Below the pieces are notes generated by a model. That model had not been told where the DNA came from. It made no database searches and was given only the letters and a program-made list of their open reading frames with translations. A stretch of 64,000 bases of DNA from Hypomesus transpacificus (taxonomy: Eukaryota > Chordata > Actinopteri > Osmeriformes > Osmeridae). Numbering within the stretch: position 1 is the stretch's first letter; each line of letters begins with the position of its first letter. The stretch is taken from assembly GCF_021917145.1 (NCBI RefSeq), contig NC_061071.1:2529110-2593109 (forward strand), written 5' to 3'. Positions 25,401 through 52,741 of the stretch are shown here, piece after piece. A program made the translations under genes and the position numbers.

Positions 25401-28400
25401 CACCTCTTCAAAAAGTAAGCGGCCGTGGGCACCGCCCAGTAAACCACTGGCGGTGCCGTCGTGCTCAGTGGTCAAGTCCCATAATGCACCTGACATAGTG
25501 CTTTGTCGTTGGCTCCTTCATTCAGGCTGGTTGAACTGTTCGTCATATAAATAATTTATGACTGTTGCGCTCTGCTTCTTTTCTGTGCGTTTGTTTCAAA
25601 TTATTCATGACTTCCAGGCCTTTTTAATGGAAGCACACTGTTCTCACTGAATGGTCGTCAGTCCCGCCTAATCTTAGATGTCCTTGGAACATCTGGCACA
25701 AACGTCAGCAAACAAACACACAATCTCCTATCATCACAAAACGCCCAAAGCAGTCAATTTGCTCCGAGTTGTTTTTTTCTTTTTACCCCATAGCCCCGTA
25801 ACCATAACCCCATCAAGGAGTATATTGTTTAAGCTAGAGCTACAGCCCAACCCTAGGACATAGCCGGCATACCCCAGTGACAGCCTGCAGAACTGGCGTG
25901 AGGCGAGTCGTGCAGCAGGATCAGGGACAGAAGATGACACACCAGGAAAGCACGTGAACACACAGGGCACAGCAGCTATGACCCAGAGCCAACTCACACC
26001 TCCTTTACTTATAGGCAAGAGGAGGCTCATCTCTGGATGCACACTTGGGAGGCATGACAGCTTGCACCTTGTGACTGGTGGATGGTGCCGGCCTGGATAG
26101 GAATGTGTTTTGCATGCAAGCAACACGCTTGACTGCTTTCTACAGCAGACCGGTTGTTTTGACTTAGATTCGTATTTATTTGTTATAATTTAAACTCACA
26201 CTGATGTAACACAACCCATGTTAAAGCCCGTTTAAAATAACCCTGGGTAAAACGTGAAAATGATACCATCCTTCACCCTACATAGCCTCCCTGCGCTCAC
26301 GAATAATGTTGTCATTTCAATGCATGTCAATCCATGACCTTTCCCAAGACGGCGACAGAATGTCGGCCTGGGCCGCGACCCCTTGTCATCAGCTGACATG
26401 TCTGAACAATGGCTGCTTCACCCAAACAGGTGCGTCCAGAGCAACATCGTGCTGCTCACTCAGGCGTTCCGGAAGAAGTTTGTCATCCCCGACTTCATGT
26501 CCTTCGCCTCTCACGTCGACGAGCTCTATGACAGCGCCAAAAACCTCAAGGGGGGACAGGTGCGTGTGCAGACGGACGGCAGGCGGCCCTAGAATCAATA
26601 ATACATACAGCGAGTGTGTGATTGAGGGGGTGGGAATGACGACGGTGTGTTTCTGTTCGGCAGGTTGCTGACTACATTCCCCAGCTGTCCAGGTTCAGCC
26701 CAGACCTGTGGGCCGTGTCTCTCTGCACTGTGGACGGACAAAGGTAGCTACCAACATGCCTCCTGGCTCGCTTTTTAATTGTCAATGCGCAGCACGCAAC
26801 ATCGATTTCCCACCTAGCTGTATGCAGTGCGTGCTGTTAATGGTAATGTATATAGTGCAAATAAAGAAGAGCAATTGCTCGTTCAAGTTCATTCGTTTCA
26901 TTTGGATTATTCTCCACTGTCCTTCCCCAGACACACTGTGGGCGACACCAAAGTCCCCTTCTGCCTGCAGTCGTGCGTCAAGCCCCTGAAGTACGCCATC
27001 GCCGTGCACGACCACGGCACCGAGTACGTGCACCGCTTCATCGGGAAGGAGCCCAGCGGCCTGCGCTTCAACAAGCTTTTCCTGAATGAGGAAGGTTCGT
27101 TCTGCTGCCGCTGGTCTCGTCCGTCGCTCACAGGGCGAGCCACCTGCCCAGACATCTCTGTGCCCGACTGCCCGTAGTACACGTTCTCAAGCGCTTGGCC
27201 CTTTTCCGTAACGGGAGATAGATGTAGACTAGCACGTCGCAATAGACTTGTTCTCGTGGGTCAGTGTCGAATGGTAGCGCACCACTATGTCTCCCTCAGG
27301 GTTGAGCCCCAGGGGGTCTCCCATGCAAGACGATCCAGCCCACGGTTGCCATGGCAGTGGGATGAAATGTTAATGATAGGCGCGGCACCGCTGCGGAGCA
27401 GCATGCTGGCGCCGTCCGTAGAAGCGTGTCGTCTCGTCGCGCCGTAAGAATTGATCCACCAGGATGTGGAAAATCCCAGCTGTAGACGCCTGGCATCAAA
27501 AGCGATTCTCCTCTCCCCTTCTCCCACGTTCGTCGTTAATTAAGTCAGAGAGGTTTCCGGTCGGGGTTTTATGTCGTTTCCTCTTCTACTTTCGTTGCAT
27601 AAGGAGCTTAAAGCGCCAGGAGGAAGTGGTGCCCCCTCCAGCAGAACAGGCAGTTCTGTAATCGTAACCTTCCGTGCCCCGCGCCTCATTATAACCAGGT
27701 CCTACCGTCCAGCTGTGATCCTGGCAGCACTCATCACCTGCTTTTACGAATATACATTTCCTCATGCAGAAGGGATTATGTGCCGTGTTTGTCCCCTTAG
27801 ACCAATTCTCCAGATCTAAAGTCTAACCAGAAGTCAAATACGGCTGGCCTTGTGTGTCTCTGCATCCCAGTCCATGTGAGGCGGCAGCGGAGTATTCCAC
27901 TTTACGCAGGTCCAAATGACACGACTTTGTCTTCCCTCCCACAGACAAACCTCACAACCCTATGGTTAACGCCGGCGCTATCGTCTGCACGTCTCTCATT
28001 AAGGTAAATAACACATGAAGTTCCCAATGTGTTGCATGTTTTAAAATGAATGAGTGACATTTGAAACTATTCCCTTGTGTGTTTAGTTCAGTGCGCAATG
28101 CTGCATAAAATAAGACTAGCACCATGCACACCATAGCTATGTGGTTCTTAAGAGTAGTTTAGTATCGAAATGACATTTCCTAATTTCAAAACGGGGACTT
28201 GCTTTAGCCAGATTACCAACTGTACTGTATACGACGAGATTAAGATGAGAAATAATCATGCTGAAAGGGGATTTGTTTAGTGAAAGCATCACTGAGCTGC
28301 ACCTAAGTTCAGCACACAGCTCATACCGTCCAGCGGGGCTAGGCGCATGCATCCGTCTGACCAGCTTAGCCATACAAATGATCTGTTTTAATCGCGGAGA

Positions 28401-38899: not shown

Positions 38900-44704
<5,805 letters not shown>

Positions 44705-46283: not shown

Positions 46284-47942
46284 CTAAGGCTTAGGAGCAA
46301 CCACAGTGGTCCACCACCATGGAGGAGATCTTGCCATAGATGATCTGCTCCATGCGATTAAAGTAGAGCATGTTGATTGGGGACATCTTGGTGGGGGTAC
46401 AGCAGGGTCCTGCAGTCCCTCTGCGGTGGACCTTGCAGTGGCGTGTTCAGGGAGTGGCCTAGGGTGGCACGGGCCACCCCTGAAATCTGATTGGCCACCC
46501 CAATATCTTAAAATATGATTGGCTATATGCCCAGTCAGAGGCGGGCCACCCCTTGTGCCACCCCTATCAAAAATGTCTGGACACGCCCCTGGGACCTTGT
46601 TCACCAGATGAGTGTGGGGGTATTTCTGCAGGTGCATATACTCACACTCTCCAGAACAGTAGTTGGCCTTGTAGTGTTTTGGGGCAATAATCCAGTCCCA
46701 GCCAAAGTCTTCAAAGCCCACAGTGAGAGGGTACCGGCAGCAACGGATTTCTGAAGACTCTTCATCACAATGCAGTTCAGTGTCCCTCCGTGATTGCTTT
46801 GTGTTCTCCAGAACCTTTACCTCGATAAAGGGTTGCTGGGAGGGAATAAATGATTTCACGAATTAATATGACAAACCAACTCTGTATAGGCTTTTGCGTT
46901 CTGTATGTGGTATAGAGTCAAATCGGCCATAAACAATTTTGTTCAATTGTTGAGTATGTTGGTTGGCCTATAGGCTACTTACCAACCCTTCTTCACCATA
47001 CTCCACTGAGGTGACCGCTAAATCCTCTCCTTGCGCGTCAATAGTTTCGATCTTAATCCCATAATGTGTATCTGACTGACGGAGCCAGACTTAAAGTAAA
47101 AGTTTAATATCTAAACTTTGCCATGAACTTGTCCCTGCATCTACGTCGATCTTCAAAGATCGAATGCGAACGCGCGTCTTCTCTTTTGAAGGTTTAAGAT
47201 GAGATATTTGCAAGAAAACGGATGAGACTCGATCACTCAGTCGCAGGTAAACCCATAATTGTGCGTTTATTATGTTTTTAATTTCAATCTTGGGAGTAAG
47301 CGTGAAAAAACAACAAGGTGGCATTCCAGCTAACTGGGCATTGAGGTCATCTAAAAAGGAAGTAAGAAACATATTTTAGACATAGTCAACAGCTATGACA
47401 ATGCATCAACGTCTGTGCAGCCTAACACATATTTCAGTTTCAGTTTACATCAGTTGAAACAGATCCGGAAAACCATGACCAATTAAACCGCGGGAATTGC
47501 TTGCGTTTACCTGGATCTAGAGCTGTCAATTACGCATGCCACAAGATGCCCAGGATGCGTGCTTTCTGCAAAGTAATGATGACTTCCAAAGATACTTACA
47601 CTTCTTGGCCATGGTTATAATAGTTTCAGTGGCAGCATGGTCATCATCTTCCACGCGTTGGTCGTACTGGTCCAGGAGTTGTGTCAACGGAGGTGCTTTT
47701 GGTAGAAGTTGTCTGATCATATCTCGGCTGATGTTTGGGGCTTGTTCGAGCCTAGGTATACTGAAAATCTGGGATTTAATGCTGTGAAGTCTCATGAGCC
47801 TGCTCTGTTCCCTGAACTCGCAAGTTGAGCATTGTTCACCTCCTTTCACGTCAATACCAGGCTGGCGTGTAGTGTTTTTATTAATCTCCATGGCTATTAT
47901 GGAGACAAAACCAAACAGACTCAGACAAAGCAGAAAACGCAT
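46284..47942 (-). pseudogene. mstn: Myostatin (GDF8) paralogue, disrupted: stop codon in exon 2 and MITE in exon 3
   Basis: TGF-beta family growth inhibitor of muscle, here broken. Exon 1 (47942-47600) encodes a signal peptide ([18 protein letters not shown]) and the propeptide ([40 protein letters not shown]). Exon 2 (47350-46983) encodes CCFFTLTPKIE and RIRSLKIDVDAGTSSWQSLD, then an in-frame TAA at 47093-47091, where relatives have Thr or Ser before VWL. Exon 3 starts at 46835 and encodes [20 protein letters not shown] and [21 protein letters not shown] 156-bp MITE (46436-46591) then interrupts the domain. The frame stays open through the MITE but comes out shifted, ending at 46284 without the CC and CGCS cysteines; the old TAA is at 46293-46291. 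The processing site reads QSRR where relatives have RSRR or RIRR. Without the MITE and one target copy the exons sum to 364 codons including the stop. Splice sites look intact. Whether this is the teleost mstn1 or mstn2 lineage is unresolved. Confidence 0.93.
46436..46591. mobile_element. hAT-like MITE, 156 bp, inserted in myostatin exon 3
   Basis: The ends are CAGTGGCGTGTTCAG and, read on the other strand, CAGGGGCGTGTCCAG (13 of 15 identical). It is flanked by a perfect 8-bp duplication, GGACCTTG at 46428-46435 and 46592-46599. The CAGnGGCG ends and the 8-bp target site are typical of hAT elements. The interior has further inverted similarity (GGGCCACCCCTGAAATCTGA against GGGCCACCCCTTGTGCCACC) and no transposase. 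Confidence 0.92.
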
Positions 47943-48710: not shown

Positions 48711-49028
48711 ATGGGATGTGTCCATTCAAGACTAAGATGCTTCTCAAAGGACGACAGCTTAAGGAAACCAAATGAGAGCATCAGAGAAGCCCACCTTGAA
48801 GAGAAACAGCCATTTGTCCACTCAAAAGATCCTGCAAAGAGGCACAAAAACAGCATGGAAGCTTCTGTCCACACAGAGGTCATACAGAATGAATTTACCT
48901 CCCTCCAGGCACTAAAAGAGTATGCTCAGAAGATGTCAGAGGAAATTGTTGCACACGCTCTCCATGTATTTGCTAAGCTGGACAGTTGCTACAGAGACAT
49001 ACCGTATATAGAGTCTGATGAGACGTGA
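48711..49028 (+). CDS. C2orf88: Small membrane A-kinase anchor protein (smAKAP, C2orf88 homologue)
   Basis: Small membrane-bound anchor for protein kinase A type I. It is 105 aa (human 95). The start MGCVHSRLRCF gives Gly2 and Cys3 for myristoylation and palmitoylation, as in human (MGCMKSK). The C-terminal half holds an amphipathic helix (LKEYAQKMSEEIVAHALHVF) equivalent to the PKA RI-binding helix, and the protein ends DIPYIESDET, where human has DIPYIES. I chose the start at 48711 although the frame is open to 48600, because the lipid-modification signal requires Met-Gly-Cys and a good acceptor (TTCTACACACCAG) places the exon start at 48649. The whole CDS is in one exon. In human the gene also lies next to MSTN in the opposite orientation. 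Confidence 0.92.
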   Translation: MGCVHSRLRCFSKDDSLRKPNESIREAHLEEKQPFVHSKDPAKRHKNSMEASVHTEVIQNEFTSLQALKEYAQKMSEEIVAHALHVFAKLDSCYRDIPYIESDET

Positions 49029-50042: not shown

Positions 50043-50744
50043 TCAGTGCTTATGATGACCATGACCGTGACCATGTCCATGTCCATGTCCACGTCCACGT
50101 CCATGTCCATGACGACCATGTTTGTGGTCACTATCACTACCACTACCACTACCACTGCCACTACCACTGCCACTACCACTGCCACTACCACTGCCGCTGT
50201 GGTGTCTGTGTTTGTGTTTGCGCCCATGCTTTCCATGGTGACGGCCCTTCCCATGGTCTTTTTTATCGGGCTCAACAGGCATACAAGGCCCAGGCCCAAC
50301 AGGGATTGGCCCACAAGTGCCGGGCCCTCCAGGCATATAAGGCCCAGGACCAGGACCAGGCCCTACAGGCATACAAGGACCAGGCCCACCAGGGGTATAA
50401 GGACCAGGATAAGGACCAGGCCCACCAGGCATACAAGGACCAGGACCAGGACCACCAGGCATATAAGGACCAGGCCCACCAGGCATACAAGGACCAGGAC
50501 CACTAGGCGTATAAGGACCTGGATAAGGACCAGGCCCACCAGGAGTCCCTTGACCACCTTGCCCCCCTTGCCCACATTGATTTAGGTCATATCCAGAAGG
50601 ATGGCCACTACCTTTAAATGGAAAATAAATGGAAAAAAGAGCACCGTTGATGTGGTAATTGTCAAGGAAACATAAAGTGGCATTGTATGCTCACCTGAAT
50701 GTGCCCAAAACATGAGAATATATCACCTGAACCAGTGTTGAACA
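50043..50744 (-). CDS. Uncharacterised Gly/Pro-rich, His-Gly-tailed protein, left copy (195 aa)
   Basis: No family is recognised. Exons 50744-50726 and 50611-50043 join at GT-AG sites to 196 codons including the stop. The N-terminus reads MFNTGSGSGHPSGYDLNQ. CGQGGQGGQG and repeats such as PGGPGPYPGPY and GPGPCMPGG follow to about residue 115. Then come a basic Lys/His segment (HGKHGRKHKHRHH), a Gly-Ser run of about 11 units, and SDSDHKHGRHGHGRGRG with a His-Gly tail. There is no signal peptide or membrane segment, and the protein is predicted disordered. The His-rich end could bind metal ions (inference). The start is the only ATG in frame in that exon and has a purine at -3. A donor-like AGG|GTAAGT follows 12 bases after the stop in both copies, so the 3' UTR is probably spliced. 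All frames are open across the simple-sequence part, so the frame is chosen from the conserved N-terminal exon and exact phase. Confidence 0.72.
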
Positions 50745-51961: not shown

Positions 51962-52741
51962 TCAGTGCTGATGACCATGACCATGACCATGTCCATGACC
52001 GTGACCGTGACCGTGTCCATGACCGTGACCGTGACCGCGACCGCGTCCACCTCCACGTCCACATCCATGTCTACGTCCATGTCCATGACGACCATGTTTG
52101 TGGTCACTATCACTTCCACTATCACTCCCACTACCACTTCCACTGCCACTACCACTGCCACTGCCACTGCCACTGCCACTGCCACTGCCACTACCACTAC
52201 CACTACCACTACCACTACCACTGCCACTGCCACCGCAGTGTCTGTGTTTGTGTTTGCGTCTGCGCCCTTTTTTTCCACGGCCCTTCCCATGTTTTTTTTT
52301 ATCAGGGTCAACAGGCATACAAGGCGCAGGCACAACAGGGATTGGCCCACAAGGGCCGGGCCCTACAGGCATACAAGGCCCAGGACCAGGACCAGGCCCT
52401 ACAGGCATACAAGGCCCAGGATAAGGACCAGGATAAGGACCAGGAACAGGCCCTACAGGCATATAAGGCCCAGGATAAGGACCCTGCCCACCAGGCATAT
52501 AAGGCCCAGGATAAGGACCCTGCCCACAAGGACCAGGACCACCAGGAGTCCCTTGACCCCCTTGCCCACCTTGCCCACATCGATTTAGGTCATATCCAGA
52601 AGGATGGCCACTACCTTTAAATGGAAAATAAATTGAAAAAAAGAGCAGAGTTGATGTGGTAATTGTCAAGGTAACATAAAGTATGCTCAACTAAGTGTGC
52701 TCAAAACATGAGAATATATCACCTGAACCAGAGTTAAACAT
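51962..52741 (-). CDS. Uncharacterised Gly/Pro-rich, His-Gly-tailed protein, right copy (223 aa)
   Basis: Paralogue of the gene at 50744-50043 with the same two coding exons (52741-52723 and 52614-51962), 224 codons including the stop. The N-terminus is MFNSGSGSGHPSGYDLNR, then CGQGGQGGQGTPGGPGPC and PGPYMPGGQGP-type repeats, a basic part (HGKGRGKKGRRRKHKHRH), a longer Gly-Ser run than in the left copy, an Asp/Ser part, and a tail of about ten His-Gly pairs. The frame before the ATG has a TAG where the left copy has TGG, which supports the chosen start. The length differences from the left copy lie mainly in the simple repeats and are multiples of three, which suggests selection to keep the frame. 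A 3' exon (acceptor CTCTTGCAG near 51740) can be seen. Function unknown. Confidence 0.72.

Follow-up and report, generated by a model that had tools for sequence, protein, structure and literature searches.

A probable mstn2 pseudogene in a teleost genome, with a nonsense codon and a hAT-like MITE insertion in its coding exons

Structure and identity of the myostatin-like gene

A myostatin gene on the minus strand of the window, the 64-kb stretch of DNA analyzed here, combines well-formed exons with a reading frame that does not run through to its natural end, and raises the question of which myostatin it is, what interrupted it, and when. The gene extends from the ATG at 47942 to the natural stop codon TAA at 46293–46291 (47942–46291) and consists of three exons. 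Exon 1 (47600–47942, 343 bp) contains the ATG, a signal-peptide-like start and the first part of the prodomain; exon 2 (46983–47350, 368 bp) codes for prodomain sequence and carries a nonsense codon; exon 3 (46291–46835, 545 bp including a MITE) comprises the end of the prodomain, an altered furin motif and the growth-factor domain, and is split by the MITE. Intron 1 (47351–47599, 249 bp) and intron 2 (46836–46982, 147 bp) are of the GT...AG type, with GTAAGT at both donors and AG at both acceptors. The initial annotation had thus correctly described a myostatin gene whose exon structure and signal peptide are intact.

Since the frame covering the first half of the growth-factor domain in exon 3 retrieved GDF8 as its top PDB match (E 1.5e-38), the resemblance to myostatin is, as judged from sequence, not due to chance. 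Matches to PF00019 flank the insertion in two different frames, covering profile positions 1–54 and 62–104, and nine mature-domain cysteine codons are retained in the alignment across both halves of exon 3. Best matches to GDF8/GDF11, three exons separated by GT-AG introns, and the nine mature cysteines are all features of a myostatin. Aligned with its counterpart in the intact mstn1 from the same genome, exon 1 is identical at 51% of 123 columns. When the MITE and one copy of the duplicated target site are removed, the exons total 1092 bp and are in frame (363 codons plus stop), the TAA in exon 2 being the sole remaining interruption of this coding length.

The furin motif reads KQSRR, as compared to KRSRR in mstn1 and gdf11 of this genome and in human MSTN, so that the RXXR motif ahead of the mature domain is lost. 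In the prodomain part of exon 1, at about 47650, nine alignment columns of mstn1 and human MSTN are absent. This gap lies around the stretch where tolloid proteases cut human MSTN; going by exon length, the data suggest that it is an old trait of mstn2.

The genome that contains the window (437,198,280 bases in 376 contigs) was surveyed for TGF-beta domains. All 62 candidates were scored, yielding 60 matches, two of which are the halves of the window gene; all remaining matches (44 loci) were compared with exon 3 of this gene. Outside the window, only two loci, L009 on contig C23 and L010 on contig C9, stand out, with identities to the two parts of exon 3 of 82.5% and 90.7% (L009) and of 79.5% and 81.4% (L010); the best rows of the remaining loci do not exceed 51%. 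L009 is an intact mstn1 with exons of 367, 371 and 381 bp (1119 bp, 372 aa) and the furin motif RSRR, and thus represents the other myostatin for which the initial annotation had recommended searching the same genome. L010, of which exons 2 and 3 were read, has gdf11-like residues. Judged by exon 3, neither a second mstn2 nor a second mstn1 was found among the 60 TGF-beta matches in 437 Mb.

Exon sizes, neighboring genes and the fact that the genome has a separate mstn1 indicate that the window gene is most likely mstn2, the second myostatin of teleosts, as the initial annotation had supposed. Exon 1 comprises 343 bp, as compared to 367 bp in mstn1 of this genome; lengths given for Salmo salar and Thymallus mstn2a likewise imply a first exon of 343 bp (481-138 and 424-81, respectively; Table 1 of PMC3557186). 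The reported lengths of mstn1 and mstn2 of Takifugu bimaculatus are 1131 and 1080 bp, as compared to 1119 and 1092 bp here.

The divergently oriented neighbor of the window gene, C2orf88 (small membrane AKAP; 48711–49028, plus strand), has an open frame that matches PF15127 over positions 1–97 of 97. A C2orf88 relative adjoins mstn1 also, and its occurrence beside both mstn genes fits the teleost genome duplication. C2orf88 was the only one of 21 neighbor pieces that matched the 129 kb around mstn1. Downstream of mstn2, exons of stat1 are located at 40208–42967 on the minus strand; the three exon pieces checked together gave matches to SH2, STAT_alpha and STAT1. Besides STAT, the window also encodes NAB domains, a glutaminase, and an MFS_1-like protein which we take to be mfsd6. 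The neighbors of tilapia mstn2 include Nab1 and MFSD6, and these neighbors support the assignment without deciding it, because zebrafish has them at both mstn genes (as described in PMC7059221).

Some other features of the window were observed. The stat1-like minus-strand coding sequence is adjoined by a minisatellite (39360–39914) in which the 14-bp unit GCTATCCTGAAGGT is repeated about 40 times. Long open frames at 50043–50690 and at 51962–52690, both on the minus strand and both rich in Gly-Pro, Gly-Ser and His, resemble each other and apparently are tandem duplicates; the latter had no Pfam match at E 0.001. An Rfam scan of the window at the gathering threshold gave a single match, the 3' element of a UnaL2 LINE (RF00436, 56429–56482, plus strand, 64.9 bits), and ARAGORN, run in its bacterial setting, predicted no tRNAs in the window.

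The nonsense codon and the MITE

The in-frame stop codon in exon 2 that had been reported initially is a TAA at 47093–47091 (minus strand; 47091–47093), which is codon 201 of the reading frame. It is located within the prodomain and is followed by another 108 nt of exon 2; upstream, the frame is uninterrupted back to the ATG. Messages with a stop codon more than 50–55 nt ahead of an exon junction are usually subject to decay; therefore, nonsense-mediated decay of the mstn2 message is to be expected. Any protein made would end after 200 residues, inside the prodomain. With this TAA and the frameshift caused by the MITE, there is no open frame from ATG to natural stop, and the gene was filed as a myostatin-family pseudogene.

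The frame-shifting insertion in exon 3 had likewise been recognized in the initial annotation, its nature as a hAT-like MITE having been missed. The element (46436–46591) is 156 bp long, has imperfect terminal inverted repeats of 15 bp (87% complementary) with ends that read CAGNGGCGTGTNCAG, and is flanked by an 8-bp target-site duplication, GGACCTTG, present as a direct repeat at 46428–46435 (left) and 46592–46599 (right) with a perfect match between the copies. MITEs of the hAT class are short, have inverted ends beginning with CAG, and generate 8-bp target duplications, and the element in the window shares all of these features. The 156 bp of the MITE and the 8-bp target-site copy add up to a net insertion of 164 bp, which shifts the frame of exon 3 and would lead to loss of the last 45 residues, among them four of the nine cysteines. 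Each of the two lesions alone should abolish an active hormone. The "several" disabling changes initially claimed thus come down to two certain lesions, beyond which there is only the changed furin motif.

In a search of the 437-Mb genome for copies of the MITE, 264 first-look candidates were obtained, of which the best-scoring 40 (loci L024–L063), mstn2 copy included, were scored. All of these best 40 of 264 candidates are 99–100% identical. Nine of them, counting the mstn2 copy, share all 156 bases; of the others, 15 deviate from that sequence by one base, 14 by two and one by three, and one has an indel. Four substitutions recur in two or three of the 40 copies and the rest are singletons, the mstn2 copy representing the commonest sequence among them, free of private changes. 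The two halves of the 8-bp duplication agree fully in 29 of the 40 copies, with one mismatch in eight (i.e., at most one mismatch in 37/40, mstn2 copy included) and more in three, two of which look changed at one end. Within the 64-kb window, a 21-bp core of the MITE, allowing up to three mismatches, had no match besides the mstn2 copy; the pattern of the terminal inverted repeats, allowing one mismatch, had one further match, at 26557.

The insertion into mstn2 looks very recent, because eight other copies are identical to it and 37 of the 40 scored copies have a near-perfect duplication. If the rate per site per year is assumed to be 1e-8, 5e-9 or 2.5e-9, the absence of changes in 156 bp places the 95% upper bound on its age at 1.9, 3.8 or 7.7 million years, respectively. 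These data suggest a burst of recent transposition of the hAT-like MITE in this genome; the family may be older than the best 40 of the 264 candidates imply.

Protein change and timing of the probable loss

With human MSTN as outgroup, 49 unique replacements were counted in mstn2 versus 14 in mstn1 (p = 1.1e-5 summed). Region by region, the mstn2/mstn1 counts are 14/5, 17/7, 5/0, 2/1, 6/0 and 5/1, with p values from 0.03 to 1; the rate excess of mstn2 is significant mainly in sum, less so for the individual regions. Columns that are identical in mstn1, gdf11 and human MSTN, exon 1 being left out of this set since exon 1 of gdf11 is missing, are altered in mstn2 at 24 of 159 positions, including the arginine of the furin motif. 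In exon 2, the altered columns amount to 9/39 before and 3/19 after the stop codon, and in exon 3 to 1/10 in the prodomain, 6/52 and 5/39 in the mature part ahead of and behind the MITE, respectively. Fast evolution is no proof of lost function, because it is normal for mstn2: salmonid mstn2a has a mean identity of 92%, as compared to 98–99% for mstn1, in the data given in PMC3557186.

The extent of decay expected under neutrality was simulated from the mstn1 coding sequence, with an assumed transition weight of 2 and CpG weight of 5, and with indels of which 70% were assumed to shift the frame, at an indel-to-substitution ratio of 0.05 or 0.12; the simulation covers substitutions and indels. 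About 90 substitutions were needed to replace 24 invariant sites. If all 24 replacements post-dated the loss, the simulation would on average produce 3.6 nonsense codons together with 3 to 7 frameshifts, whereas the 1092 bp of mstn2 contain a single nonsense codon and lack small frameshifts. An outcome of at most one nonsense codon and no frameshift at 24 replaced sites occurred in 1% of 2000 runs at the ratio of 0.05 and in 0/2000 at 0.12; at the latter ratio, its frequency was 8.2% at 8 and 2.6% at 12 replaced sites (1000 runs each). Because the simulation expects more nonsense codons and frameshifts than are seen, the loss looks recent, and on the assumed mutation parameters most of the protein change in mstn2 probably predates it, having occurred when the frame was kept. 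The initial suggestion of a recent loss therefore gains support from the identical MITE copies, the single nonsense codon and the absence of small frameshifts.

Interpretation and significance of the probable loss

We consider it very probable that the window gene is an mstn2 derived from the teleost genome duplication which was recently inactivated on the sequenced haplotype, be it fixed in the species or otherwise. The sequence directly shows the gene with its two lesions, the MITE and target duplication, the match of this MITE to other copies, and an intact mstn1; the lack of a functional hormone, decay of the message and the timing outlined above are inferred, as is the view that mstn1 carries what remains of myostatin function. 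With one assembled haplotype, it is possible that the nonsense codon reflects a rare allele or a base error and that the MITE is polymorphic.

A variant of this reading, possible and on balance rather unlikely, is that the null haplotype still segregates and that a large part of the species has a functional mstn2. The MITE, identical over 156 bp to eight other copies, is perhaps young enough for polymorphism, and it is accompanied by only one small lesion. However, two separate null lesions reside on one haplotype together with the altered furin motif, and because they co-occur, loss in the lineage fits better than a single fresh insertion. It is a slightly more doubtful prospect that such a segregating knockout would provide natural mstn2-null and mstn2-intact fish, with a mutation that stems from a recent burst of a hAT-like MITE.

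Isolated myostatin prodomain inhibits the hormone, and as nothing interrupts the mstn2 frame between the ATG and the stop codon, the truncated gene might act as a natural antagonist by yielding a secreted 200-residue prodomain able to bind and restrain Mstn1. A truncated prodomain has also been considered for mstn2b of O. nerka; however, the authors of PMC3557186 judged such a product unlikely on the grounds of splice motifs. For the window gene, decay of the message is expected from the position of the stop codon, 108 nt ahead of the exon junction. Moreover, invariant columns are altered at 9/39 positions before the stop codon (exon 2) versus 15/120 after it; since conservation ahead of the stop codon does not exceed that of the remainder, there is no support for a prodomain product under selection, and we regard the antagonist as very improbable. 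Still less credible is an assembly or base-calling artefact: the evidence comes from a single assembly, and for the TAA taken by itself a base error is conceivable in principle, but a MITE that has inverted ends and is flanked by an exact 8-bp duplication, like most of its sister copies (at most one mismatch in 37/40), is unlike the product of an assembly error, the window contains no N, and the neighboring C2orf88 is open across the full profile. Least likely of all, the gene could be the salmonid mstn2b pseudogene already described, with which it shares the paralogue class, the pseudogene state and, as deduced for mstn2a of Salmo salar and Thymallus, an exon 1 of 343 bp, an identity that was rejected because the 437-Mb genome has a single mstn1 and a single gdf11, with neither an mstn2a partner nor a second mstn1 among the 60 TGF-beta matches, and because no comparable insertion appears in the salmonid gene descriptions in the available part of PMC3557186.

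The gene content of this small genome, with one mstn1, one gdf11 and one mstn2 in 437 Mb, agrees with the proposal of the initial annotation that the loss is independent or lineage-specific. The salmonid mstn2b pseudogenes are described in PMC3557186 as nonfunctional genes of three exons with in-frame stop codons, whose lesions differ among species; the window gene likewise is a nonfunctional teleost mstn2 with three exons and an in-frame stop codon. Going by that description, mstn2b originated from the additional salmonid duplication and has mstn2a beside it in the same family, whereas the window gene is the only mstn2 found; mstn2b shows deletions, small insertions and non-consensus splice motifs, whereas the window gene has GT-AG introns, a MITE and one nonsense codon. 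A single mstn is listed for medaka and for Japanese flounder in PMC10604553, and these fish would resemble the present case in having one working myostatin; a second gene is unreported in that list, whereas here it persists as a young, still readable relic. Among the matches listed from the open-licence PMC literature, no title or abstract mentioned an mstn2 loss with such an insertion. Losses of mstn2 in fish are already known; an apparently very recent one outside the salmonids is a new case.

The emphasis that the initial annotation placed on muscle growth was overstated. Expression of tilapia mstn2 is reported to be mainly in brain and absent from muscle (PMC7059221), and medaka and Japanese flounder are listed with a single mstn; a large muscle effect is therefore not to be assumed. 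The sequence itself does not give a muscle effect, and an intact mstn1 is present.

The significance of the locus lies in the fact that the loss has a datable cause, a MITE whose best copies remain nearly uniform across the genome. The gene appears to have been caught between fast protein change and decay, and its counterparts in relatives and populations could show whether constraint went first. If the null allele segregates, it would offer a ready-made natural test of mstn2 function.
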